From a virus, in the IMG/VR virus record IMGVR_UViG_3300049846_001455, positions 1 to 23,550 of that record: a stretch of 23,550 bases of DNA; one strand, 5' to 3'. Position numbers and translations under genes: made by a program. A model generated the notes under the pieces. It searched no databases and had not been told where the DNA came from. It worked only from the letters and a program-made list of their open reading frames with translations. Of the stretch, positions 5,523-18,452 are shown piece after piece. How positions within the stretch are numbered: the first letter of the stretch is position 1; every line of letters starts with the position of its first letter.

Positions 5523-6752
5523 TTATGGGGAAATGTAGTTGTACAAAGCAGCACAAGCAGAAGGCTGGCTATTGAACATATTTGCGAAGAAACGCATACG
5601 AATCTCGAAAGAATCGCTGTCAGTTTGCGCAATAAGTCCAGAACCAGTTTCAGTGGCTTGCTCAAGCTCGTTAAGAACGTAGAGTTTCAACACGTCCGAA
5701 GGAATCATGTAGATCCGTTGTGGAAGATCTTTATCAACCATGATTGGTACGTTGTTGAATGACAACCCAATGGATTTAGCGCCCTTCCATTGTCTGTTAT
5801 CCATGGTCTCGCCGGAGCTAATATAGCGTCGGTCTGCCTGAAGCAATTTGCCATAGTACCTGGACGAGTCGAAATCCATGAGAAGACCTTGATATGAACC
5901 GTTGCCAGTTCCCCCGCGTCTAAGACCTAAGTTCCAAGCAGTCTGCATCGCATCGATGGTTAATTGACCACCAGAAACGTTTACAAGATTTCCTTGAAAC
6001 TGTGGGTAAGCAGATCGATCAATTCCGTAGATCGTGGATGTTCCGCCGTCAAGCGCATATCCAAGACCTTGAATTTCTGCATTGTATGCTCCAGTTCTTA
6101 CAATCAAGTCACCGCTTGCAGCAGTAACAGGAGTATCGAGTGTTACGGTTGCCGTAGTTGTTCCAGTAACAGCCGTTACAGTTACGCCTGTGGCTTTGTA
6201 CACCCCTGCCGAACTGACGATATCGATAATCATGTCAGGGAAAATGAATTTAGAACCGTCTTCAGTGGTTCCTTCACGTCCTTGAACAGAAATCGATTGA
6301 GTCGCGACAGCAGCTGCGGAAAGTTTTCCGAGTGTCCCAGTTCCATCAAAACCCAATTGACGATTGAGATCAGATTTAAGATCAACGTATCCAGCTTTAA
6401 CGACGGCATCTAATTGACGAAGAAACGCGCCTTTGTCATTTTTAGAAGCTGCGATAATTCCAGCGGTTAATCCAGTTCTCAACCAATTATATTTATGAGC
6501 TACAACAGCTTGGGAGGTCTTGTATCGACCGATTCCAGGCATATTGCCGCCGTCGGTTCCTGCACCGATGCCTTGATTACGATTTAGCTTCAAAGCAACG
6601 TAAGTGGCATCACCTGCAACGCCTGCTTTTGATTTTTCAATGAACGACATAACAGGCATGTCATTGTTCAACTGATCGACCATACCGTCGATATAGAATC
6701 GTTTAAGAAGTGCGCCTGTTTCATTGACGACACTTGAGAATTGATTACTCAT
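5523..6752 (-). CDS. Major capsid protein
   Basis: The length (409 aa) and sequence match HK97-fold phage major capsid proteins. The N-terminal helix region is MSNQFSSVVNETGALLKRF. A conserved segment reads DATYVALKLNRNQGIGAGTDGGNMPG. An inserted beta region (YKATGVTVTAVTGTTTATVTL, then SGDLIVRTGAYNAEIQGL) is typical of coats related to N4/P22-like families, and a C-terminal part (NNVPIMVDKDLPQRIYMIP) is typical of the P-domain and A-domain. It assembles the icosahedral shell around the scaffold protein encoded just upstream. AGGGGG lies about 6 bases before the ATG, a strong ribosome binding site suited to high expression. Family assignment is by recognition, without a database search. Confidence 0.9.
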   Translation of the reverse strand: MSNQFSSVVNETGALLKRFYIDGMVDQLNNDMPVMSFIEKSKAGVAGDATYVALKLNRNQGIGAGTDGGNMPGIGRYKTSQAVVAHKYNWLRTGLTAGIIAASKNDKGAFLRQLDAVVKAGYVDLKSDLNRQLGFDGTGTLGKLSAAAVATQSISVQGREGTTEDGSKFIFPDMIIDIVSSAGVYKATGVTVTAVTGTTTATVTLDTPVTAASGDLIVRTGAYNAEIQGLGYALDGGTSTIYGIDRSAYPQFQGNLVNVSGGQLTIDAMQTAWNLGLRRGGTGNGSYQGLLMDFDSSRYYGKLLQADRRYISSGETMDNRQWKGAKSIGLSFNNVPIMVDKDLPQRIYMIPSDVLKLYVLNELEQATETGSGLIAQTDSDSFEIRMRFFANMFNSQPSACAALYNYISP

Positions 6753-6777: not shown

Positions 6778-7695
6778 CTATTCAATACCTAAAGCTTTAC
6801 TCATTTCTTTGAACGAATCCTTCAGCGCAAAACGTTGAGGAACTTGCCCTGGAATTGAGCCACCTGCTTTGGTGTCTTTAGCTTTGTTGTTAATTGTTTT
6901 AGTTTGCTGAATGTTCTCAGAAAGCCATTGCTTTTTGAGCGCATCCATCTTTTCGTGGCTTAGCTTGTAGGCTTGTTCCCATAACTCAGCGGTTGCGGGA
7001 GTTCCATTTGCTAATGCTTGGCTTAGCACTGCTTCGACTTGTTCAGGTTGGGCAAGTGAATACTTGCTTTTGTTCTGAGTGTCCCATGCTTGCCATTGTG
7101 CGATGGTCGCGGCTTTTTCTCTCTCTGTTACGGATTCCCTTAACGGGTTGATCTCTTTAGAGATGAGAGCCTGGACCTCTTGTAAAATTTGTGACTTGCT
7201 AATTCCACTTTGTTCGCTTGGTTGCTCTTCAAATTCAGCAACAAATGAGTGGAATTTAGCAGGATAAGTTTCTTTAAATTTTGAAACAAGATTTGGATAT
7301 TGCTTCACCATGGATAGATCGTGCTGCAAATTATCCCAGTACTTTGCTTCCTGTTTTTGTGCTTCAAATTCTTTCTTCGTCGCTGCAATTTCTTGCATCT
7401 TCTTTGTGTAATCAGATTGACGAAGTAAATTTTTCTTAAGCTCATCAAGAGTGAATTCTCTGTCCTCAAACTTAAATTTACCGTCTTTAACGAGATCTTT
7501 AAGGTCTAAAATTTTTTGCTCTTGTGGTTCGACAGGTGTTTCAGCTGCTTCAGGTGCTTGAGCTTGCTGAACAGGTTCGGGCAACTCTTGAGGTACTTCA
7601 GAAGGTGCAGCGTCAGGCGCTTGTGCAAGAGGTTCGTCTTTGTTGACGTTGTCTACTACGGCGCTAATGATGTCGTCTAATTTAGGAAACGCCAT
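6778..7695 (-). CDS. Capsid scaffolding protein
   Basis: The 305-aa protein is acidic and helical, lies between portal and major capsid genes, and has the composition of a phage scaffold. A Pro/Glu/Ala/Gln-rich disordered arm (roughly residues 20-60) leads into a conserved patch (DLVKDGKFKFEDREFTLDEL, DYTKKMQEI). A long coiled-coil region (KKEFEAQKQEAKYWDNLQHD onward) follows, with a basic C-terminal helix (FALKDSFKEMSKALGIE) of the type that contacts coat protein. Scaffolds guide procapsid assembly and are then removed; no protease domain or separate protease gene is seen nearby, so release is probably without cleavage. Order and spacing fit the portal-scaffold-coat arrangement. Confidence 0.85.
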   Translation of the reverse strand: MAFPKLDDIISAVVDNVNKDEPLAQAPDAAPSEVPQELPEPVQQAQAPEAAETPVEPQEQKILDLKDLVKDGKFKFEDREFTLDELKKNLLRQSDYTKKMQEIAATKKEFEAQKQEAKYWDNLQHDLSMVKQYPNLVSKFKETYPAKFHSFVAEFEEQPSEQSGISKSQILQEVQALISKEINPLRESVTEREKAATIAQWQAWDTQNKSKYSLAQPEQVEAVLSQALANGTPATAELWEQAYKLSHEKMDALKKQWLSENIQQTKTINNKAKDTKAGGSIPGQVPQRFALKDSFKEMSKALGIE

Positions 7696-7699
7696 AAAG

Positions 7700-7882
7700 T
7701 TACTTCATTCCCTTCATGAGTTTCTGAGGTAAAGATTTCTCTTCTTCCATGTCGCCTATTTCGTCTTTGGATTCTTTTGGTTCGATTTCAATTTCAACGG
7801 ATGACTCGTCGCTTGGTACGAGTTTGAAGCTCGCGTTTTTAAAGTAGTCGGCAATAGCCTTCTTCATGATTTCGTCTTTCAT
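7700..7882 (-). CDS. Small acidic protein between portal and scaffold (60 aa)
   Basis: The ATG at 7882 overlaps the portal stop in an ATGA junction, and AAGGAGAGG lies upstream, so translation is coupled to the portal. The protein has an amphipathic N-terminal helix (MKKAIADYFKNASFKLV), an acidic centre (VEIEIEPKESKDEIGDMEEE) and a Lys/Met-rich tail. No family is recognised. Small genes in this position sometimes encode assembly cofactors; nothing more can be supported. Confidence 0.65.
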   Translation of the reverse strand: MKDEIMKKAIADYFKNASFKLVPSDESSVEIEIEPKESKDEIGDMEEEKSLPQKLMKGMK

Positions 7883-9819
7883 AGACCTGTAACCTCTCCT
7901 TGTGGTTCTTGTCCTAATGCTTGTGGTTCTTGTTGTTGCGGTACTGGTGGAGCTTTATGCGATTGTGGAAGTGTTTGCGTGATGCAAGCCTCCATCATGT
8001 CCATCAGCATCGCTTGAATCTGTGGAGCTAATTTTTCGAACTTATCGCCTAGACGATATTCGTTGAGTTTTTGCAGCCATAAAGGCGAGTTATCAAAATC
8101 TGTCGGATAGCTTGGAATTCCTTGCTCAAGCTTCTCGATGACTTTTTTGATCTGCATCTGATCAAGGTTCTGTTTCTTCCAAGCCTCTTGAACATCACCG
8201 AACTCAAGTAATCCAAGAACGTTTTCCCTGACCGCTGCATCGGCTGGATCTCCAAATAGGCCGCGTTCATAAATATTAAGTATGTCTTGCCTCATCATGG
8301 CCTGACTATTCGGGAGTGTAGATCCACGTCTGACAATGACATCGGTATTGTCTTTAATGTCAGCGCCTAGGAATGATGAAACCCTATAGCCTTGATTCGA
8401 TGCTTGCTTTAGTAAGCGTTCATTTTGAATATATTTTTGAGCATATAAAAGAATCAGGCGGCCAACCTTGGCCCATGAATGCTCATCTGCCTCCGTGATG
8501 ATCCCGATCCGGGTTGCATCTGCCTCCAAGAGGATTTGCATCCCAACCCCACTAATTGAAGAACTCGGAATCTGCCCACGGGCTACGTCTGAGACGCCTG
8601 CTATTTCATAAAGCGCATTTAAAAGTCTATCCTCTTCCGTATATGCATATTGAGGAATCATCGGAACCTGAACAGGTTGCGGCCTTCCCCCATCAGCGGC
8701 GTTGGGGACTGGATCGTATTCAACGATCTCTCCGCTTTCATCATCCATCGCCTCTTGAGCCAAGCCAGCTCCACGTGGAACAGAGTACTTTCCTGCAATG
8801 AGTTTATTCACCCATGATGCGCGCTTATTAATCAGGATATTGATCTGTTCCTGAACTGGGCGCATGTGGGTAACAATAGCTTCTGAGTAATATTTCCCAC
8901 CGACGATAATATCATCGAACTTAACGAATGGGATTTCTCCTACTGGAAGAGGTTTGTCATCAAGTAATGTTTGCCCACACCATGTAATCATGCGGCCTTC
9001 TGGGTACTTGATTGATGGTGCTTCGTAGTAGACTTTTTCAACTGCGCAGTTTTTAATCGCAGAGTTTGCTGTCTCTGATCCACCTTGCGCATTCATTGAG
9101 TTGATGCGTTGTTGATATTGAAGACCCATAAGAGAGACTTGCTCTTCTTTGATCTGCATTCCCTTTTCGCCGTAAGTTGATTTGAAATAATTAAGCGGCC
9201 TTACTTTGGCGTGAATAACAAACGCACACTCATCAAGGGTCTTTGCAACTGGATCAGGATAAAGCTCAAAAGCTGATACGACATCAATACGAATGTCGCC
9301 TTCTTTTATGACTTCTCCGGTCATTGGGTCCTGCATCTTGCGACCCTTGTCGGCATCCCAGCAAACTTTGACGTAAGCATGTCCGCATTGCTGCTTCCAC
9401 ATGTAAAGATCAATCCGTTTTCGGTTTAAATCCTCAGCATCCCAATAGTGATTGATGATCGAAATGCCAAGCTCTGCACCCTCTTTGTCCTCAACCTCAG
9501 ATGAGTTTGGTCTTACTTCGTATTTCGGGGGGAGTTTGCACATCCGTGCAGTTCTGTTTTGAAGCGTAGGTAGAATACGATTGGTCTGAAGCTTCATCTT
9601 CCGAACGCCAAGCGTATCTATAGTTCGATACATGCGCTCGGCCTGCGACCAGGTAAGATTTTGATAACCTAAAAGCCAGGCGGAATTTGTTAGCCAAAGT
9701 GATTCGTGAGCTGTGCGGTTCGCAGCGCGTCTTGATTCGTCTAGCTTACCTTCAACGTAAGCGATAATACTGCGCTCACTGAGCGGCTGCTGTTCGTTTT
9801 CGCTTTCGTTGTCGAGCAA
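7879..9819 (-). CDS. Portal protein
   Basis: The protein (646 aa) resembles the long portal proteins of podovirus-like phages. N-terminal helices carry Trp-rich LWLTNSAWLLGYQNLTWSQ. A core follows with NRILPTLQNRTARMCKLPPKYEVRPNSSEVEDKEGAE, then HAYVKVCWD and FELYPDPVAKTLDECAFVIH. The stem/crown region has a helix with PVQEQINILINKRASWVNKL and the stretch ISGVGMQILLEADATRIG. The dodecameric portal sits at one capsid vertex and docks the terminase. The only in-frame start before the conserved N-terminus is TTG at 9819 (or CTG 9825). It overlaps a 17-codon out-of-frame ORF that begins with a better-placed ATG at 9829. The C-terminus is Gln/Pro-rich. Confidence 0.9.
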   Translation of the reverse strand: MLDNESENEQQPLSERSIIAYVEGKLDESRRAANRTAHESLWLTNSAWLLGYQNLTWSQAERMYRTIDTLGVRKMKLQTNRILPTLQNRTARMCKLPPKYEVRPNSSEVEDKEGAELGISIINHYWDAEDLNRKRIDLYMWKQQCGHAYVKVCWDADKGRKMQDPMTGEVIKEGDIRIDVVSAFELYPDPVAKTLDECAFVIHAKVRPLNYFKSTYGEKGMQIKEEQVSLMGLQYQQRINSMNAQGGSETANSAIKNCAVEKVYYEAPSIKYPEGRMITWCGQTLLDDKPLPVGEIPFVKFDDIIVGGKYYSEAIVTHMRPVQEQINILINKRASWVNKLIAGKYSVPRGAGLAQEAMDDESGEIVEYDPVPNAADGGRPQPVQVPMIPQYAYTEEDRLLNALYEIAGVSDVARGQIPSSSISGVGMQILLEADATRIGIITEADEHSWAKVGRLILLYAQKYIQNERLLKQASNQGYRVSSFLGADIKDNTDVIVRRGSTLPNSQAMMRQDILNIYERGLFGDPADAAVRENVLGLLEFGDVQEAWKKQNLDQMQIKKVIEKLEQGIPSYPTDFDNSPLWLQKLNEYRLGDKFEKLAPQIQAMLMDMMEACITQTLPQSHKAPPVPQQQEPQALGQEPQGEVTGL

Positions 9820-10044: not shown

Positions 10045-10388
10045 TACTGTGTGTGCCCTTCAACAACTAGAGTAGTTTGGCCGTGAAGTCTTTGATGGGA
10101 TTGCATTTTTTCAAATGCTTCCGTCTTCTCTTGTGTCCCAGGCTTGTAAACCCGTAGATTTTTGTAATCAATGTAATTCGAATCGCCTAATCCTTGAGGA
10201 CAGATGTAAGTCAACATATCTTCGTTGGCTTCAATAGCCTTGAGTCCATCGACTACTGCCTTAAAATGTCTGAGCTCGAACATCTGAGGCGTCTCATCTT
10301 TGACGGCCGTGTAGTAATCAATAACTGTTTTGGTTGTTTTTGTCCCGACTTCGGGCTTTTTGAAGCTGGTTGATGTAGTGTCGCTCAT
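10044..10388 (-). CDS. Unknown protein downstream of the terminase nuclease half (114 aa)
   Basis: The ATG at 10388 has a strong GGGGGATAAAG ribosome binding site and lies 71 bases inside the end of the terminase nuclease gene in another frame. The protein starts with a polar arm (MSDTTSTSFKKPEVGTKTTK) and continues as a small alpha/beta domain (VIDYYTAVKDETPQMFELRHFKAVVDGLKAI, ICPQGLGDSNYIDYKNLRVYK). No motif is recognised. The position between terminase and portal suggests a packaging or virion role, as inference only. Confidence 0.7.
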   Translation of the reverse strand: MSDTTSTSFKKPEVGTKTTKTVIDYYTAVKDETPQMFELRHFKAVVDGLKAIEANEDMLTYICPQGLGDSNYIDYKNLRVYKPGTQEKTEAFEKMQSHQRLHGQTTLVVEGHTQ

Positions 10389-11115
10389 AATCTTTATCCC
10401 CCGGTTGTGGCGCTCTCGGTTTTACGTTTGGTTTAGCTGGATAGTGAATCACAGTCTCAACACTTGAAAGGGCATCAAGTAGATCGTCATGTTTTGCCCG
10501 TGGAAACTGCGCTAGTTCCAGCTCTAAATCAAATAACCCCTTGTTGAGATAAGCGTAGCCCCATTCGAAACGTGGCACAAGGCCCATAATCCTCTGTTCT
10601 TTGGTTTTATCAGTGCCTGGGTGAATGCCTTTAACAGGAATAATTTCCCCCCGCCTACGCATTTCCTCCGCGATCATATATATGAGTGCCTTTTGATAGG
10701 CTACTTCCTCAATTCCCAGGCACATGATCTTTTGCTCTTTACAGACCCTAAAAACAAGGTCTACTAGTTGCGTAGGATTAACCCTATATCTTTGCGCGGT
10801 TTTGATGTACCAGTTTTTATCCTCATCGACGGAAACAATCACTAACGCCGTGAAGTCAGAACCTTCTTGCTCGCTCAACGCTGGATCAATAAAAGCAAAG
10901 TTGTAAACCTTCTCTGGAATGGCCGAATAATACTTAACCCAAGCCTTTTGGAATGGCGTCTCACCTTCCGGCACAATCTCATTCTGATACTGATTAGCGA
11001 ATATATAGGAGCCTTGTGTTCGTTTTGCATTATCTAAAAATTCAGAGGTTAAACGCTCGGGGAATAGTAATGATCCATCGTCTTGGATGGCTTTTTTGTA
11101 TGTTACTGACCACAT
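10318..11115 (-). CDS. Terminase large subunit, C-terminal nuclease half
   Basis: The 265 residues correspond to the last part of the ATPase domain plus the RNase H-like nuclease of a phage large terminase. The opening MWSVTYKKAIQDDGSLLFPE is the region that normally follows the GTRY motif inside one polypeptide. The nuclease shows FIDPAL (D77), GSDFTA (D87), the IEE pair (136-137), PRFEWGYAYL, and the C-terminal HDDLLDAL cluster (D210, D211, D214), so all catalytic acids are present. It cuts concatemeric DNA during packaging. The ATPase half is encoded 5.6 kb upstream at 16720-17418. The start directly abuts the TGA of the 132-aa gene, with no good ribosome binding site, so reinitiation is likely. 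Confidence 0.9.
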   Translation of the reverse strand: MWSVTYKKAIQDDGSLLFPERLTSEFLDNAKRTQGSYIFANQYQNEIVPEGETPFQKAWVKYYSAIPEKVYNFAFIDPALSEQEGSDFTALVIVSVDEDKNWYIKTAQRYRVNPTQLVDLVFRVCKEQKIMCLGIEEVAYQKALIYMIAEEMRRRGEIIPVKGIHPGTDKTKEQRIMGLVPRFEWGYAYLNKGLFDLELELAQFPRAKHDDLLDALSSVETVIHYPAKPNVKPRAPQPGDKDYERHYINQLQKARSRDKNNQNSY

Positions 11116-11514
11116 TCACAAACGTCCGAGTAGATACCCTAGAGTAGTTGCAAAAAATGCAACAACTGATTTACTCCCATAGACTTTAAAAAACGCTTTC
11201 GACTTCTTCCATGCACTTTGCTCGACGTACGGCATGAAATCATTCACAACCCCAAACGCTTCAATGTGTTCTGAACGCGCTACACGCTCCGGATACGTTA
11301 AAGGCACAACACGACCAGAAACAAACTTCCAATACTGTGGAGAAAACCCTTGAACAGCCGATAAATCAGGGTTTTTTGCAACAATGTGAGCGCCTTCCCA
11401 TTTCATACGCTCAATCTCGGGGGGATTAACTACTATCCGTGCGTTGTTAAACGTAAACACAACATAAAAATCGTTGATCGCGTCTTTTGGGTTACCTGTG
11501 AACCATGATTTCAT
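11116..11514 (-). CDS. Protein with hydrophobic C-terminus (132 aa), unknown
   Basis: The first ~85 residues look like a compact domain (FYVVFTFNNARIVVNPPEIERMKWEGAHIV, PQYWKFVSGRVVPLTYPERV). A Lys-rich stretch follows, then a hydrophobic C-terminal segment (SVVAFFATTLGYLLGRL) that could be a single membrane helix. The ATG overlaps the stop of the 371-aa gene (ATGA). Its own TGA is immediately followed, in the same frame, by the ATG of the terminase nuclease half, so the two are separated by one stop codon. The family is not recognised. Confidence 0.7.
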   Translation of the reverse strand: MKSWFTGNPKDAINDFYVVFTFNNARIVVNPPEIERMKWEGAHIVAKNPDLSAVQGFSPQYWKFVSGRVVPLTYPERVARSEHIEAFGVVNDFMPYVEQSAWKKSKAFFKVYGSKSVVAFFATTLGYLLGRL

Positions 11515-12626
11515 CCAAAGTACCCCATTGAATAAGCGGATGAGCCGCCACCGCTTGACGTATCAATAGCGTTCTCGTTTTCCAATATCAATCCGCATGC
11601 ATATATTTGATCGCTGTAATCTGTCCACGAACTGCCATCGTAATAGGTTTTTTGAAATGTCCCATTGAATGGCAATAAAGACGAATATCCAGTATCTGTT
11701 CCGCAAGTATATTTATAGCTCGAATAATAATTCGAAGATGTATCACTTTGTGATGACTCCGCTATCGTAATTCTATAGGTGGTGTTTGCACTTAATGACT
11801 GTGTAGTTGAAAAATATAACGGAATATATTGAGCGTTACCGTTTGTAGTTTGAGTATTTGGGACGGTCGAAACAGTTGTATCAACCAGAGACGTGCCATT
11901 ATAAAGTCGATAGCGCAAATTTCCTGTTGGTGTACCGTTTCGAAATATAAAAAAAGTTATCCCAATTACTCGGAATTTTCCATTTGTTGGAGTTGTAAAT
12001 TTCACGCCGACTTCACGTGTTGAATATGTCGTTTGCGTCACCTCTGTTCCATTGTTATGGATAGCGGAACCATCGTATTGAGGAGTCGTCCCTGTGTCTA
12101 AAATAACAATGATACCCGGAGAAGCGGCCACATTGCCAGCAGTCCAGGCAGTTCCGGAATTTGTTGTATGCCGTTTATTATAACCGTAGGTCACGTTATT
12201 ACCACAGGAGAACACGGGGACAGCGCCGTTAGCTGGATAACGAAACGTGACGTTATTACTAGCCGGCGTCCCGTTTACATTTTTAAAAACTGCCCAGTAT
12301 TGGCTTCCCGCCGTGTAAGCGGTAGTGAACCCAGTCCATTTGTAAAATCCTGCAGCACTAGGAGTGCTTGAGCAATTTTTTGATTCAATACTTGAACCAG
12401 GAACACCACTAGAATCGCTATAAATGTCACAAGTGATGTCACTTGCGACGAGAGTTCCTGTGATCGTTGATAAATAAGCATGAATTTCATTAACGTTAGC
12501 GCTTTTTGCAATGAATGAAAAAGCGACCCAGGTCGCCGCAGCGTTGATTGCTTGAGTTCCCATGCCGTTGGCTGGAGCATTCGGCAGGAAGCCAACACAT
12601 AAACTATTTGGTTTAATTAATGCCAT
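11511..12626 (-). CDS. Beta-sandwich virion protein, probable fibre or adhesin (371 aa)
   Basis: The protein is rich in Thr, Ser, Asn, Tyr and Gly. It appears to consist of two related beta-sandwich domains (about residues 20-180 and 190-350). Each contains a pattern seen in carbohydrate-binding or choice-of-anchor type modules: DIYSDSSGVPGSSIESKN with TAGSQYWAVFKN in the first, and RYRLYNGTSLVDTT with LSANTTYRITIAESS in the second. The tail is a flexible Gly/Ser segment (SSGGGSSAYSMGYFG). It lies in the adhesin cassette between the two terminase halves. No catalytic site is visible. Binding of glycans or decoration of the tail is inferred. Confidence 0.75.
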   Translation of the reverse strand: MALIKPNSLCVGFLPNAPANGMGTQAINAAATWVAFSFIAKSANVNEIHAYLSTITGTLVASDITCDIYSDSSGVPGSSIESKNCSSTPSAAGFYKWTGFTTAYTAGSQYWAVFKNVNGTPASNNVTFRYPANGAVPVFSCGNNVTYGYNKRHTTNSGTAWTAGNVAASPGIIVILDTGTTPQYDGSAIHNNGTEVTQTTYSTREVGVKFTTPTNGKFRVIGITFFIFRNGTPTGNLRYRLYNGTSLVDTTVSTVPNTQTTNGNAQYIPLYFSTTQSLSANTTYRITIAESSQSDTSSNYYSSYKYTCGTDTGYSSLLPFNGTFQKTYYDGSSWTDYSDQIYACGLILENENAIDTSSGGGSSAYSMGYFG

Positions 12627-12629
12627 AAA

Positions 12630-12881
12630 TTACTTAATAATAATCATATCGCCAATGGCTTGCGCTATAGCTTCGGCATTTCCTAGATTTACGTTTAAAT
12701 CGGCTAGTTTCATCGCAATTTGATAAATTAAATATTGCTGCTCAGAGTGTCCGCCTTCATCGATAATATAACCTAGAGTTGATCTAGGCACTGTGAAACT
12801 CCCACCTTGTCCATCACCGATCTCAATTTGAGATTCGTCAATATTTAAAACTGTTAATTGAGCCGTTGGAAAGTTTACCAT
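12630..12881 (-). CDS. Small protein of the fibre cassette (83 aa), unknown
   Basis: A short beta-rich N-terminus (AQLTVLNIDESQIEIGDGQGGSFTVPRSTL) is followed by a helical C-terminus (QQYLIYQIAMKLADLNVNLGNAEAIAQAIGDMII). It sits 3 bases after the repeat-bearing fibre gene and 3 bases before the 371-aa gene, so all three are one transcript. No family is recognised. Confidence 0.65.
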   Translation of the reverse strand: MVNFPTAQLTVLNIDESQIEIGDGQGGSFTVPRSTLGYIIDEGGHSEQQYLIYQIAMKLADLNVNLGNAEAIAQAIGDMIIIK

Positions 12882-12884
12882 TTT

Positions 12885-15068
12885 TCATCCCATCCTTGTG
12901 CAAATAAGTGTGACAGTGACCCTGGTTACAGTCGATACAGAATCAACATTGAAGCCTAGATAATCACCATCTGTTAAGTTTGTAGTCCATGTGCTTAAAG
13001 CTAAATCTTGATTTTTTGTTGCACTCGATAGGGTTGGTTTTTCAGATCCGGCAATTGTATCTGCAACAGTAGGCGGAAAGTTTGCGTAAGTATCTTTCCA
13101 GACGTCTACAACGATTGAACCTGATTGATCAGCGACGATGTCCCAACCGGTGATGACACAATTGAAAGGAACTCTCACGTAACCCTTTACGCCAGTCGTA
13201 ATCGCAGAGCCCCCGCCATCAATTGTAAAGGTACAATTCGATTTCAAAGCTAAGAACGAAAGCTGTCCGGCTGCATTGGTTACTAAAGGGGCAAACGTTG
13301 CGCCGTCAGCAGGCGGAAATATATAAGTTTGATTAGCCATGCCCGAAGCGCCGCGAAAAGTAATTTCGTTAGCGCTATTTGCATGAGCGAACCGAAACGA
13401 TCCGGTTTGTTGATTTGCTACACCTAAACGTAGTCCTAAAATTGTCGGTGAAAACGTCCAACCCGGTGCAGCTCCATCGCTGATCGGAATTGCCCAAGTC
13501 GCACCTTGTGCTGTGTAGCGAATCCCTGTTGAAGTTCCGTAAGCCAACCCATTGAGAATTTGAAGGGTGTTCCCTGTGCCCCCCATTGTGATGCCAAGAA
13601 TGCCCGAGAATCCGCCTCCACCACCGCCCGACACCGTTGACCAAGATAACCCACCGCTTGCGTTGGTGGTTAGAACTTGTCCGTTCGTGCCGTCACCTGT
13701 TGGCCATGTGTATGATTGTGCTAGGCTTGATGCACCAGCTGCAAAGGTGATCAGATTATTAGAATTAAGATGTCCAAAACTAAGCGAACCAGTTGCAACC
13801 CCAGTAATACCTAAAATCAACGAGTTTATTTGTGGGCTCGCAGTCCATCCGGGGTTAGTCACTCCGCCAATGAGAACTTGATTAGTGCTTCCTTGAGCGG
13901 TGTAAACGAATCCAGTAGATGTGCCAACAGCGACGCCTCTATCAGTGAGTGATGCGTTTCCAGTGCCTCCGAGGGTTACGCCCCAAGGGATAGCGAACGT
14001 TTGACCACCACCAAGAGCAGACACAGAAGCCCATGCAAGAACACCAGTTGAATCTGTTTTAAGCACTTGATTCGCAGACCCGTCAGCACTTGGAAGAGTG
14101 TAGGTTGTCGATGCTTGCCCAGAGATACCTTGAATCTGAATAAAATTCGCAGATCCAGCATGTCCGAATCTTGCGACACCAGTGATCGAGTTAGGGAACC
14201 CGATATTGATGTTGTTTACAGTTGGCGTGTTTGTGAACCCTGGAGCGCCAACGCCTCCGACGAATACTTGATTAGTAAATCCTGCAGCAGAGTAAGCAAT
14301 CTGTGTACTTGTGCCATATGCAACGCCGTTGAGCGTAGTTAAAGTCGCACCTGTCCCGCCGATTGAGATGCCGTAAGGAAGAGCGAAGCTTTGTCCGCCT
14401 GAAGCTGCAACGGTTTGAAACGCTAATTGCCCAGTAGTTGGATCAGAGAGAGCTAAAACTTGATTGGTTGTACCAATAGCACTTGGAAGCTTAAGGGTGT
14501 AGCCAGCGACCACGCTATGCCCTACAACAGATATAGCATTGACGTTATCTGTAGCATAGAACGCGACGCCCTTAGCTGAACGCATGCCCATTGGATAGAA
14601 GACGTCAATTGGACCTGATTGCCCGAATGTCATGCGAAAAATCGAGCTAACGCCTACGTTGAAAGTCGTGTTATCCGCAGTCCCAACAAAATGAATCGTA
14701 GAATTAGTTCCAGCGTTCCCACTAAATCCCCAGCCGGTAGCTACGGCCTGTGAAACCCCTGTGGGTATTTGCCAGGTGCCGTCAGCGCGAAGAAATTTAG
14801 TCGATCCGTCGCCTGCGGCTGGAGCGGGGACCATCCCAAGAGACCCGCCTGATCCAGCGTCGCCTTGGAAAGCCACGCCGTTTAAAGTGATTTTCTTAGT
14901 TGTTGAATCGCCAACAACAGTGATCGATTGGTCGGCTGTAATCGTGAGAGTAGACGTTGCTGTGTCAGCCGTTGGGCTTGTACCTGTTTCGGGTTGAATG
15001 ATAGTAAAAGCGTTTTGAGCTCCACCACCTGATCCGCCAGCTCCTCCGACCTGTCCTATTCTGCTCAT
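12885..15068 (-). CDS. Tail fibre with three ~130-residue repeats and a C-terminal binding-type domain (727 aa)
   Basis: A Gly-rich N-terminus (VGGAGGSGGGAQ) leads into phage-fibre stretches (FLRADGTWQIPTG). From residue 237 three tandem repeats start with GGTG at 237, 367 and 496. Each carries GVAYGTSTQIAYS-like, QVLIGGVTNPGWT-like, FGHANSANEI-like and TYTLPSADG-like blocks. A partial copy precedes them. The C-terminal ~115 residues (FTIDGGGSAITTGVKGYV, DVWKDTYANFPPTVAD, YLGFNVDSVSTVTRV) match a jelly-roll-like domain recurrent at the ends of phage fibre proteins. AAGGGG precedes the ATG. The start directly abuts the TAG of the 92-aa gene. A role in host attachment is inferred. Confidence 0.85.
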   Translation of the reverse strand: MSRIGQVGGAGGSGGGAQNAFTIIQPETGTSPTADTATSTLTITADQSITVVGDSTTKKITLNGVAFQGDAGSGGSLGMVPAPAAGDGSTKFLRADGTWQIPTGVSQAVATGWGFSGNAGTNSTIHFVGTADNTTFNVGVSSIFRMTFGQSGPIDVFYPMGMRSAKGVAFYATDNVNAISVVGHSVVAGYTLKLPSAIGTTNQVLALSDPTTGQLAFQTVAASGGQSFALPYGISIGGTGATLTTLNGVAYGTSTQIAYSAAGFTNQVFVGGVGAPGFTNTPTVNNINIGFPNSITGVARFGHAGSANFIQIQGISGQASTTYTLPSADGSANQVLKTDSTGVLAWASVSALGGGQTFAIPWGVTLGGTGNASLTDRGVAVGTSTGFVYTAQGSTNQVLIGGVTNPGWTASPQINSLILGITGVATGSLSFGHLNSNNLITFAAGASSLAQSYTWPTGDGTNGQVLTTNASGGLSWSTVSGGGGGGFSGILGITMGGTGNTLQILNGLAYGTSTGIRYTAQGATWAIPISDGAAPGWTFSPTILGLRLGVANQQTGSFRFAHANSANEITFRGASGMANQTYIFPPADGATFAPLVTNAAGQLSFLALKSNCTFTIDGGGSAITTGVKGYVRVPFNCVITGWDIVADQSGSIVVDVWKDTYANFPPTVADTIAGSEKPTLSSATKNQDLALSTWTTNLTDGDYLGFNVDSVSTVTRVTVTLICTRMG

Positions 15069-15347
15069 CTATACCCCTTGATTGTAGCCGAATAGGCATT
15101 GAATGCTTACGGTTGAAGATGTCGCGGCAACGTAGAACGTGCCTGCACAGTTGAAATAGATAGCACTGCCTCGGTACTGGTAGCCTTGTCCCCAACGAAG
15201 TGAAGCGCCTCCGATTTCAAAGCTTCCGCCTGACAGCTGATCTATCAAAACGCAGTTAAGCCCAGGCGTTACAGTTACGCCGAATATTGTCGAAAGTCCT
15301 ACATTATACCTTTGAGCTGCTAAATAATGGACATCATCACGAGCCAT
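15069..15347 (-). CDS. Small virion-region protein, paralogue A (92 aa)
   Basis: It shares its layout with the 93-aa neighbour. A polar N-terminus ends in a GV/GVT segment, followed by a central Gly-rich hairpin. The C-terminal block FNCAGTFYVAATSSTVSIQ corresponds to LNCAGTFYIAASGSTAVIQ in the neighbour. This suggests a tandem duplication. A GGGG ribosome binding site is present. The fold is probably a small beta-barrel or sandwich; the function is unknown, and fibre or tail decoration is suggested by position between a glycosyltransferase gene and the fibre gene. Confidence 0.75.
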   Translation of the reverse strand: MARDDVHYLAAQRYNVGLSTIFGVTVTPGLNCVLIDQLSGGSFEIGGASLRWGQGYQYRGSAIYFNCAGTFYVAATSSTVSIQCLFGYNQGV

Positions 15348-15348
15348 T

Positions 15349-15630
15349 TTAAAACCCCATCGAGACGCCGAAGACTGTTTTAACTATTTGAATGACAGCA
15401 GTTGAACCACTAGCTGCGATGTAAAACGTTCCAGCACAGTTAAGTCCTAACGTTGTGGTGGGGAGTAGAAAGCCATTACCAAAGCTTCCACCGATATTAG
15501 TAAGTGCGGCGGTTCCGCCAGTTACCTGAACACCAACGGCATATTGTCCAAAGGTTCCTGTTACTCCCCGAGTTGTATTCGGAGCGATTTGATATTGTTC
15601 TATGACCAATCCATTTGATCGTTCTGCCAT
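15349..15630 (-). CDS. Small virion-region protein, paralogue B (93 aa)
   Basis: This is the tandem partner of the 92-aa gene and is separated from it by 1 base. The conserved C-terminal block (LNCAGTFYIAASGSTAVIQ) and similar length show common origin, while the N-terminal halves have diverged. The ribosome binding site is GGAAGGACC about 7 bases before the ATG. The composition is Gly, Thr and Val rich, consistent with a small beta structural protein. No enzymatic motif is seen. Confidence 0.75.
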   Translation of the reverse strand: MAERSNGLVIEQYQIAPNTTRGVTGTFGQYAVGVQVTGGTAALTNIGGSFGNGFLLPTTTLGLNCAGTFYIAASGSTAVIQIVKTVFGVSMGF

Positions 15631-15633
15631 TTT

Positions 15634-15756
15634 TTAAGGTCCTTCCGGAATAACAGGAGCAGAGCCATCGCCACTTGATGAGAAGCCCCCAATTCCTACA
15701 CTTCCAAGAGTAATTGCGCTACACCAATAAAGGTAAAAAAACTCTTCGTCATCCAT
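15634..15756 (-). CDS. Very small hypothetical protein (40 aa)
   Basis: The frame is open to 15879, but the upstream part lies inside the glycosyltransferase gene. The ATG at 15756 (MDDEEFFYLYWCSAITLG) starts 4 bases after that gene ends and its stop lies 3 bases before the next start, so it fits the operon exactly. There is an acidic, aromatic N-terminus and a Gly/Ser/Pro tail. No convincing ribosome binding site is visible. Function unknown. Confidence 0.5.
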   Translation of the reverse strand: MDDEEFFYLYWCSAITLGSVGIGGFSSSGDGSAPVIPEGP

Positions 15757-15760
15757 TAAT

Positions 15761-16525
15761 TTACATTGTGGCTTGCAAAAGTTCAAAAGGCGAGAACTTC
15801 GATTGGAAATGAGCCATCTCTTTTGAATTATCGTAGCCTTTACCCATGGTTTTCGAGCCAAAGTGTAAGGCAAAAGCATTCGTATTCACAAACGTGGCTA
15901 TTCCGTGCAATGCGGCGCGCATGCAAAAATCAATGTCGTTATGACTTCGGTCAAGGAGTGGATCAAGCCTTCCTAGTTTCTTCCAGACAGCAACAGGGAT
16001 GAACGGGCAGATAAAACTTACCCAAGGCATTCGGTAGTGGATGCCAAAATAGGGCGAATAATATTTCAAGAATTCGAAATCTATATCTTCAAACTCATAA
16101 CCTGTTTGCTTGTACGGTATCTGCCCGATGAAACGAGTGCCGTGCTCATTGTTAGAAAGGGGGGATAAAATGATTGGCTGCTTTTGTAGCGTTCTAAAGT
16201 AAAGATTCTCCATCTCCTCGACCGATCTTTGAGTCAAATAAACGTCATTAGACATGAGCGCCGTCAATTCTGTGTCGGGCTGCAAGTGATCAAGGAAGTA
16301 TTCGACTTTCTTTGATGCGTTATCGAGTGCTTTATCGATGTGAAGAATCGCTCCTGGAATAGAATCGACCAATCTTATCATTTCATTACTTACCTGATCT
16401 GTAGAGCTAACTACAGTGAGGAGTGGCAGAGACGTTTGAAGCTTAATGGATTCTATAGCTTTAAGCGTATACTTTTCGGTCTCTAGCTTATGATGGCTGA
16501 TTATTATCTCGGTTTTCGATTTCAT
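15761..16525 (-). CDS. GT2-type glycosyltransferase (254 aa)
   Basis: The GT-A layout is recognisable. There is an N-terminal strand (TEIIISHHKLE), a helix with SIKLQT, a strand (LLTVVSSTD), and the metal-site region ALMSNDVYLT (residues 89-98) in the DXD position. Near the C-terminus, HNDIDFCMRAALHG (195-208) and ALHFGSKT (219-226) match the acceptor/catalytic segment of rhamnosyltransferase-like GT2 enzymes. Donor and acceptor cannot be told. It lies between small virion genes and a basic protein, inside the cassette that splits the terminase gene. It may modify virion proteins or host surface glycans. The ribosome binding site is AGGAT, and its start overlaps the preceding gene by 38 bases. 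Confidence 0.85.
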   Translation of the reverse strand: MKSKTEIIISHHKLETEKYTLKAIESIKLQTSLPLLTVVSSTDQVSNEMIRLVDSIPGAILHIDKALDNASKKVEYFLDHLQPDTELTALMSNDVYLTQRSVEEMENLYFRTLQKQPIILSPLSNNEHGTRFIGQIPYKQTGYEFEDIDFEFLKYYSPYFGIHYRMPWVSFICPFIPVAVWKKLGRLDPLLDRSHNDIDFCMRAALHGIATFVNTNAFALHFGSKTMGKGYDNSKEMAHFQSKFSPFELLQATM

Positions 16526-16736
16526 GAAAAATCCTGATTATCGGCAAATGAAATAATTCAAGTATAAACCCACCAACAGTCGTTTTCTTAACTTGTTTCT
16601 TCAACTGCTTCAAATGAGTTTTATTTTTTGCTGGCAACAATGGTTCTAGTTGTTTGGCGCACCAATCCCGATACTCTTGTGTTTTTTTATATTTCCTAAT
16701 TTTTTCGCGCATTCGAGTGCTATATTTCTTTTTCAT
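16488..16736 (-). CDS. Small basic protein overlapping the terminase ATPase half (82 aa)
   Basis: Starts 17 bases inside the end of the terminase ATPase gene in another frame. It is strongly basic at the N-terminus (MKKKYSTRMREKIRKYKKTQ) with helical character and a second Lys cluster (HLKQLKKQVKKTT). A hydrophobic stretch then follows (VGGFILELFHLPIIRIF). This could bind nucleic acid or membrane. It is the first gene of the cassette that separates the two terminase halves. No homing-endonuclease motif (LAGLIDADG, GIY-YIG, HNH) is visible. Function unknown. Confidence 0.6.
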   Translation of the reverse strand: MKKKYSTRMREKIRKYKKTQEYRDWCAKQLEPLLPAKNKTHLKQLKKQVKKTTVGGFILELFHLPIIRIFHEIENRDNNQPS

Positions 16737-17418
16737 TTTCTATTTCGTTTTCTAATATATATCCGATTACATCTAGCGCAGAATATCTCGTTCCAATGAC
16801 AACTAATGTGCCCTCTGGCTCGAGAATACTAATATTAAGCCGGTAGTGGTCAAGGACCTTTTGACAGCCCTCAGGTGTTGCGGAATTTTTATCTGTATTT
16901 AGGTCATCGGCGATAATGGTATCAAAATGAGCCCCAGTCTTATTCGCTTCAATTCCAGATGCAACCACAGAGGGTTCTCTGACGTTTGCTGTGCGATTAG
17001 CTAGGGTTATTTCGCCTTCCCCCCAAGGTATTCCGCGAAGATCACCAAATAAATCCATCATCAATGGTTTTTCGAATATTGTTCTAATTTGTTTGATCCA
17101 ATTCTTACTATTTGCGTATTTCTCACTATCGATAAGGATTCGAAGATTCGGATTGCGCAACAAAAGCCAAACAGAATAAGCAACAACACCGATGGAGCTT
17201 TTAAATGTTCCCCGTGGCATTACAATGAGCTTACGTTTTGTCTCACTCTCAAGGTTCTCGATCATATCGCCATGAGTGCGCCAAGTGATTTCATTAAAGC
17301 CGCAAAGGTATTTTGCAGTCATGTAGAGTGAGCTTTTAAACTCATCGCGTAGGAGTTCTTTGTGTATTTCATGATCTATTTCTGAACTATTTGGAATTTC
17401 CGGAAGGTTGGTTTCCAT
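16720..17418 (-). CDS. Terminase large subunit, N-terminal ATPase half
   Basis: The 232-aa protein holds the packaging motor ATPase: Walker A MPRGTFKSS (residues 67-75), Walker B with TIIADD (167-172), and the coupling motif VVIGTRYS (206-213). It stops shortly after GYILENE, where a full terminase would continue into the nuclease domain; that remainder is encoded at 10318-11115. The frame also offers TTG 17421, but ATG 17418 has AGAGG 7 bases upstream and overlaps the preceding stop (TGATG), so it is preferred. The ATPase core is intact, so it probably works with the separately made nuclease half. Whether they assemble is not shown by the sequence. Confidence 0.9.
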   Translation of the reverse strand: METNLPEIPNSSEIDHEIHKELLRDEFKSSLYMTAKYLCGFNEITWRTHGDMIENLESETKRKLIVMPRGTFKSSIGVVAYSVWLLLRNPNLRILIDSEKYANSKNWIKQIRTIFEKPLMMDLFGDLRGIPWGEGEITLANRTANVREPSVVASGIEANKTGAHFDTIIADDLNTDKNSATPEGCQKVLDHYRLNISILEPEGTLVVIGTRYSALDVIGYILENEIENEKEI

Positions 17419-17636
17419 CAATTACCTCTGCGATTTGACCAGATAACAACGCAAAACCATACCAACGTGAGGAAAATTGGCATTGAATAGAATACGACGA
17501 TGTCCCAAGAAATGACAGGTTTTGATAACTGAACTTTTAACAAATGCAGGACCCACACGGTCGAAGATACAAATTGAAAAATAAGAACAATAGCGATCAA
17601 GACTCCGGCAATTTTTGCCCTTTTTTCTCTGTGCAA
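17418..17636 (-). CDS. Small protein with two membrane helices (72 aa), holin-like
   Basis: After a basic N-terminus (MHREKRAK) come a hydrophobic segment (IAGVLIAIVLIFQFVSSTVWVLHLL), a short polar loop and a second hydrophobic segment (WDIVVFYSMPIFLTLVWFCVVIW), ending in basic SNRRGN. Two helices with charged ends fit small holins or other inner-membrane phage proteins. It overlaps the terminase ATPase start by 1 base. No endolysin gene is visible in the window, so a lysis role is only a suggestion. Confidence 0.65.
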   Translation of the reverse strand: MHREKRAKIAGVLIAIVLIFQFVSSTVWVLHLLKVQLSKPVISWDIVVFYSMPIFLTLVWFCVVIWSNRRGN

Positions 17637-18349: not shown

Positions 18350-18368
18350 GAAACAACTCCTTTTTCAG

Positions 18369-18452
18369 GCGCCTCGGAGGGACTCGAACCCCCACGGTCT
18401 TCCCAAGTTACGTGGACTTTGGGAGTGCCCTACCTACTTAGGCGACGAGGCA
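18369..18452 (-). tRNA. tRNA-like gene with abnormal anticodon arm
   Basis: Acceptor strands TGCCTCG and CGAGGCG pair over 7 positions (one T-G). A D-arm (GCC, loop with AAGTAGGTAG, GGC) and a canonical T-arm (GGGGG, loop TTCGAGT, CCCTC) are present. No CCA is encoded. The centre does not give a normal anticodon stem. The best pairing is TCCCAA with TTGGGA enclosing a 12-base loop, or an 8-bp stem with one bulged A and loop CCACGTA. The second would present ACG (Arg) but lacks U33. A CTCCCAA loop (CCC, Gly) with a mismatched stem is another possibility. Amino acid identity is unassigned; it may be degenerate or atypical. Confidence 0.6.

Follow-up and report, generated by a model that had tools for sequence, protein, structure and literature searches.

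The large terminase subunit (TerL) is among the strongest molecular motors, and it is still debated how its ATPase drives DNA through the nuclease/translocation domain. In herpesviruses, the TerL homologue UL15 is encoded in two exons with other genes between them, and these exons are joined by nuclear mRNA splicing. In T4-type phages, essential genes may occur in pieces, as exemplified by nrdA of phage Aeh1, which is split by mobE, the gene for the large topoisomerase subunit of T4, which is split by mobA, and the 43A/43B DNA polymerase of Aeromonas phages; the NrdA of Aeh1 and the DNA polymerase (gene 43) of phage 25 function as split proteins (PMC2988022). When the TerL of T4 was cut at its linker, the ATPase and nuclease activities were kept and translocation was lost (PMC3012670, PMC9958956). 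Splicing of terL transcripts is documented for phage ICP1 (PMC10448857) and for the Jug phages (PMC12363816). Here we describe a terL gene in pieces in the IMG/VR virus record IMGVR_UViG_3300049846_001455, all 23,550 bases of which were analysed and are referred to as the window. An original prediction, made from the letters of this DNA, had placed ten genes between an ATPase and a nuclease gene derived from one terL. We find that the split is shared by a whole clade, and we consider it probable that TerL was cut once at a loop of its ATPase domain and that its two chains reassemble in trans as a working motor.

The two pieces of terL were located in the window on the strand and at the coordinates that had been predicted, and the profile matches agreed with this assignment (Table 1). 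Together they tiled phrog_38, the TerL profile of 760 positions, leaving about two positions unaccounted for in the PHROG scan. Because the two matches abut, the pieces represent successive parts of one TerL, and the nuclease piece indeed continues where the ATPase piece ends. The termini were as described before: the ATPase piece ends in GTRYSALDVIGYILENEIENEKEI followed by its stop codon, and the nuclease piece starts with MWSVTYKKAIQDDG. The ATPase open reading frame (ORF) covers 16720-17421 when counted from a TTG codon, and an ATG is located at 17418. In addition, the ATPase piece matched the T7 gp19-like chains 4bij and 8dgc (E about 1e-10), and the nuclease piece matched Pfam Terminase_6C above the cut-off. 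Like a TerL of the T7/phrog_38 type, the locus thus encodes an ASCE ATPase with Walker A, Walker B and motif III, as well as an RNase H-like nuclease with its catalytic carboxylates and a model that resembles solved nucleases. Such a TerL is one polypeptide; here, ATPase and nuclease were separate ORFs in all 28 loci described below. An intact terminase elsewhere had been named as a finding that would overturn the prediction, but the TerL profile scan revealed no second TerL in the window, in a related 40-kb contig (L001) or in 14 further records of the clade.

This contig, L001, was recovered in the first scan. Its ATPase and nuclease pieces showed 70% and 81% identity, respectively, to those of the window and were split alike, with a gap of 5,405 nucleotides (nt) as compared to 5,604 nt in the window. 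Wider scans, alignments and classification with hidden Markov models resulted in a set of 28 non-redundant IMG/VR contigs with both halves, the window included, and TerL was split at the same junction in each of them. With 27 further contigs split alike, a chance split is excluded. The smallest gaps between the halves measured 320 nt (L194) and 384 nt (L183), and the largest 6,322 nt (L017). In another 17 contigs, the stretch covered had an ORF of this type and of nuclease size but no ATPase. The search for related phages with fused or split versions, as advised with the original prediction, accordingly placed all split contigs in one clade and fused TerLs outside it. In a two-domain tree, the 28 loci formed one clade with a support of 100 in the Shimodaira-Hasegawa-like approximate likelihood ratio test (SH-aLRT) and a single state change, and a second tree with a different background again displayed one split clade and a single change; TerLs more distantly related than this clade were fused. 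The split is old, arose once and characterises the whole uncultured clade.

Among cultured phages, the closest by portal or capsid were Microbacterium phage Shocker and Arthrobacter phage Jasmine (23-26% identity). In both, the terminase is encoded by a single, intact gene of ~527 codons that immediately precedes those for portal, scaffold and capsid. Since these nearest isolates keep an intact TerL, the split is the derived state. The ATPase piece itself had no match above 32% identity among 50,697 phage records, and the best isolate matches that were inspected, namely ICP2, S-CBS2, 1N2-2, LE4, Quhwah, ANMV-1 and Manatee Spring ctsTn925, have a fused TerL as judged by the length of the coding sequence (CDS). 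No prophage relatives were detected in 84,980 species genomes in one scan that employed patterns only.

A TerL split at the same loop was also observed in a distant phage lineage (L148:381-2752 and L150:3096-5461), where the gap measures 524-530 nt and holds two small genes of 89 and 99 aa. L148 was placed among fused TerLs with an SH-aLRT of 99, and a single joint clade was not quite rejected in the approximately unbiased test (p 0.054). The split in this lineage is probably independent of that in the main clade. In L130, one in-frame stop breaks the TerL frame into two otherwise contiguous ORFs, which reflects either a sequence error or a nonsense change. A reassortment of the halves between phages was considered as a possibility: trees of the ATPase and nuclease halves conflicted strongly (log-likelihood drops of 151 and 199), but conflicts were also observed in the odd/even-site and fused controls. 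The correlation of ATPase and nuclease distances was 0.47 for split as opposed to 0.97 for fused TerLs, and 0.34 and 0.46, respectively, within the same distance range.

The claim that both catalytic sets are intact was borne out across the clade. PRGTFK, both aspartates of ADD, and GTRY were invariant in all 15 aligned ATPases, as were D77, E136, D211 and D214 of the nuclease piece in an alignment of 14. As judged from sequence comparisons, both halves are kept by purifying selection: in close pairs, the proportion of nonsynonymous differences (pN) was 0.12-0.32 in both halves versus 0.77-0.92 for synonymous differences (pS). Furthermore, when starts were set mechanically at the first start codon, the nuclease start abutted or overlapped the preceding stop in 23 of the 28 loci, and in most loci the ATPase stop overlapped the start that follows or was close to it, ATGA being a frequent form. 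Synthesis of the two halves would be kept in step by stop-start coupling along an uninterrupted operon.

To locate the cut, the fused relatives are informative. They read ...GTRW-Y-DLY--I--NE---F-V---A---G-L-FPERL across this region, where the cut position is occupied by no more than a short loop. Within the clade, the ATPase pieces stop 2 to ~35 residues past the junction, after the 'NE' helix, and nearly all nuclease pieces start 1-11 residues ahead of a conserved W, which in nearly all members stands where fused TerLs have F. The AlphaFold model of the nuclease piece (predicted local distance difference test, pLDDT, of 82) matched solved TerL nucleases over residues 51-229 with Z scores of 13-16, the match to T4 gp17 beginning at its residue 361 and that to Sf6 gp2 at 212-213. 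The RNase H-like nuclease domain begins at about residue 52 of the piece, and the N-terminal segment ahead of it aligned with the part of fused TerLs that follows motif III. Judging from its position in the model, this segment of ~50 residues is most simply read as the lid/linker of the ATPase domain, a placement for which we take the subdomain borders of T4 gp17 to be as generally understood. The 'nuclease gene' of the original prediction does contain the nuclease, but the label falls short in that the gene also holds this presumed ATPase part. The cut falls inside a loop of the ATPase domain and not at the border of the ATPase and nuclease domains. In T7 gp19, the ATPase profile alignment extends to residue 207 and the nuclease match starts from 272, leaving ~65 residues between them. 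In the window, 16 residues on the ATPase piece and 51 on the nuclease piece give 67 residues between core and nuclease, and since this compares well with T7 gp19, no residues were lost at the cut.

A family of jelly-roll-like proteins of ~100 aa, which the original prediction had missed, was encoded between the halves, in one to three copies, at 26 of the 28 split loci, and none of the 60 fused loci, flanks included, was found to have it. In L194 and L183, which have the smallest gaps, it is the sole gene in the gap. The exceptions were L168, which lacks it, and L184, where a 128-aa protein that is unrecognised by the family profile is found instead. A reverse search with the family, using patterns that reach close relatives only, returned clade contigs that were already known. 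The AlphaFold model (pLDDT 82.6) displayed a double-stranded beta-helix or jelly roll with spike protein P1 of PM2 as best PDB match (Z 10.8 over 85 residues). Because cupins and others scored close behind, the match supports the fold alone. It is conceivable that the protein bridges or regulates the TerL chains as a third component of the motor, in place of their covalent link, instead of serving as a decoration protein of the virion, but we give this idea little credence.

A scenario that would account for the two chains starts from a single break of TerL in the clade ancestor, in the loop that connects the helix following motif III (GTRY..D..G.IL.NE) to the subsequent strand (W.V.Y..A). The small jelly-roll-like gene would have entered this break, with further host-recognition genes following in many lineages, and each half would have gained its own stop and start without losing residues. 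Translation of the operon by stop-start coupling may then provide both products in step for reassembly in trans, where chain 1 would be the ATPase core and chain 2 the lid, linker and nuclease. The lid, the hinge and the nuclease/translocation domain, which couple ATP hydrolysis to DNA movement, would thereby stay on one chain. We think that the split is tolerated since the hinge is spared, with the presumed lid, hinge and nuclease kept together and only the ATPase core being separate. The break itself may have been caused by a homing endonuclease or by illegitimate recombination; homing endonucleases are an obvious candidate given the precedents, yet only two cassettes were seen to hold them, and the minimal cassettes were not among these. 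On the whole, the data support the suggestion in the original prediction of a two-subunit motor-nuclease, or of a terminase that functions in trans, in which the halves would work jointly.

Several points weigh against a working two-chain motor. The clade has no cultured member, and the function of the two chains is deduced from their sequences. No second terminase was present in the 40-kb relative, yet completeness is proved for no record. By analogy with T4, a TerL that has been cut need not be a motor, although the cut in T4 lies elsewhere. Conceivably, there is no single motor at all, and the ATPase piece packages DNA with another partner while the nuclease piece only cuts it. The isolated domains of T4 retain their ATPase and nuclease activities (PMC3012670), which would be compatible with such separate roles. 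However, the presumed lid half sits on the nuclease piece, so that the ATPase piece alone would be without it. Moreover, wherever a locus was long enough for both halves to be visible, both were kept and lay in one operon, and the scan of clade records revealed no other TerL. We regard separate roles of the two proteins as unlikely.

Alternatively, the pieces could be exons of one terL that are joined by RNA splicing, either across a long cassette-bearing intron or in trans. The spliced terL transcripts of ICP1 and the Jug phages are precedents, and HNH endonucleases occur in two cassettes of the clade. Nevertheless, Rfam searches detected no group I or group II intron in the window at E values up to 1, and none when gathering thresholds were applied to 11 related loci. 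In L194, the 320-nt gap is filled by one ORF with ATGA and TAAATG junctions and zero non-coding bases. Start codons were present on the nuclease pieces a few residues ahead of the conserved W, and the gap varies 20-fold in size, with virion genes inside. Splicing of the halves is thus not seen in these sequences, in line with the original prediction, and appears very improbable. Likewise, the view that a split intein joins the halves by protein splicing is hardly tenable: inteins do exist in the clade, inside the ATPase of L187 and the nuclease of L021, but the ends at the cut (2 to ~35 and 1-11 residues) are too short for most split-intein halves, and neither split end in the window has a Hint domain, which together with the Rfam scan, in which no intron appeared, confirms that intron and intein signatures are lacking as stated before. 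The intein of L187 (5833-7638) is of the LAGLIDADG type and lies within the ATPase half, and that of L021 (1655-3397), with a Hint_2 match, interrupts the nuclease half at its HDD motif; neither is at the cut. Finally, an assembly join error, or a decayed terminase with an intact copy elsewhere, is refuted by the clade as it stands: although no end repeats were found on the window, a fragment of 23.5 kb, an artefact is excluded because 28 contigs share one junction, with conserved neighbours on either side, purifying selection and no other TerL in the records scanned.

The organisation of the locus is summarised in Table 1. Across the clade, the gene order is ATPase, cassette, nuclease, small genes, portal, scaffold and capsid, with the portal being present in 26 of the 28 loci. 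A helix-turn-helix gene precedes the ATPase in 11 loci and is perhaps the small terminase, to which it had a weak hit (E 0.001). In the window, the gap was found to contain eight clear genes and one ORF of 40 codons instead of the ten genes that had been counted. The GT2 enzyme reported among these has weak support in the window itself, where its best GT2 match in Pfam had an E value of 0.2; members of its family reach GT2 models, as in L013 with an E value of 3.5e-5, below the cut-off. Putative glycosyltransferases and fibre-like proteins are encoded by the variable cassette genes of the clade, and the position of the break seems to act as a landing site for host-recognition genes. One cassette carries sugar-modifying cargo in the form of a GDP-mannose 4,6-dehydratase-like gene (L020:2922-3878, Pfam E 9e-67). 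HNH homing-type endonuclease genes were observed within two others (L184:2164-2637 and L015:6017-6532, the latter on the minus strand), and none was found among the cassette genes scanned in the minimal cassettes of L194 and L183. Outside the cassette, a tRNA-Gly (CCC) gene is located at 18368-18452 on the minus strand of the window, between the replication and packaging modules.

Table 1. Positions of the terL pieces, the intervening cassette and neighbouring genes in the window
Feature	Position	Strand	Evidence or remark
TerL ATPase piece, 232 aa	16720..17418	-	phrog_38 291-465, E 3e-34
Walker A MPRGTFKSS	17220-17194	-	within ATPase piece
Walker B IIADD	16917-16903	-	within ATPase piece
Motif III GTRY	16794-16783	-	within ATPase piece
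Cassette, 5,604 nt, 8-9 co-directional genes	11116..16719	-	98% coding
82-aa basic protein, start overlapping ATPase stop by 17 nt	16488..16736	-	homologue at same place in L001
254-aa putative GT2-like glycosyltransferase	15761..16525	-	cluster c12, 9 loci; weak GT2 matches in family
40-codon ORF, uncertain gene	15634..15756	-	
Jelly-roll-like companion, copy 1, 93 aa	15349..15630	-	family membership
Jelly-roll-like companion, copy 2, 92 aa	15069..15347	-	family membership; AlphaFold model
727-aa repetitive fibre/virion protein	12885..15068	-	C-terminus: phrog_35197 E 5e-29, phrog_10330 'virion structural protein' E 2e-18
83-aa cassette protein	12630..12881	-	
371-aa adhesin-like cassette protein	11511..12626	-	family match: none
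132-aa protein, directly ahead of nuclease piece	11116..11514	-	cluster c17, same position in 6 loci
TGA/ATG stop-start junction, 132-aa gene/nuclease piece	11113..11118	-	sequence
TerL nuclease piece, 265 aa, own ATG	10318..11115	-	phrog_38 468-731, E 4e-49
N-terminal ~51 residues of nuclease piece, presumed ATPase lid/linker (WSVTYKKAI..DGSLLFPERL..EFL)	10963..11115	-	upstream of matched nuclease domain
Portal, downstream of nuclease piece	7879..9819	-	phrog_156 E 5e-41
Scaffold	6778-7695	-	phrog_3927 E 9e-6
Major capsid protein	5523..6752	-	phrog_14242 E 3e-42

If the two-chain motor works, the covalent linkage between engine and transmission would be dispensable, and what counts may be the linkage of the transmission to the translocation domain. 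The clade provides a test of whether motor and nuclease need to be on one chain, to which the linker cut in T4 forms the contrast. Furthermore, the halves would form a split system, ready for use, with which motor subunits could be titrated. In annotation, phages of this clade will seem to lack a terminase or to have a broken one.

Two CDS carrying the parts of TerL were previously described in a cultured lytic phage, Parabacteroides phage PDS1 (gp45 and gp46), whose authors suspected recoding or an assembly problem (PMC10773633). In PDS1 (L213:23502-25054, MN929097), these CDS of ~337 and 148 aa are 92 nt apart, with no cassette between them. Two CDS annotated as 'terminase large subunit' were also observed in L003 (9804-12341, MW202554), the first of which, of 551 aa, contains an intein-like insert and is followed by a short gene. 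PHROG 4758, of ATPase length (243), and PHROG 5573, of nuclease length (250), matched the two pieces with nearly the same borders, and fused TerLs matched both as well; similar split TerLs may already be included in PHROGs and, so far as we found, were not remarked upon as a pair. The terL genes of ICP1 and the Jug phages are likewise in pieces, but these are joined by RNA splicing, whereas in the split clade no intron was found and a start codon of its own is present on the nuclease piece. No description of a split or bipartite terminase of the present arrangement was found in the open-access library that was searched, subscription papers being outside the scope of this search.

We found no earlier account of a TerL that is unspliced, carries an insert of several genes and is fixed in this form in a clade, and we file it under genes in pieces and not as a new category. 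As in the T4-type cases, an essential phage gene is present as two unspliced ORFs of which both polypeptides are kept, and both parts are intact, with no residues lost and no splicing signal. Joint function of the parts was demonstrated in two of the T4-type cases, whereas that of the split TerL is deduced. In the T4-type cases, few phages are affected, and a homing endonuclease or short spacer separates the parts; in the split TerL clade, in contrast, the insert consists of 0.3-6.3 kb of virion and host-recognition genes and is fixed in a deep clade.

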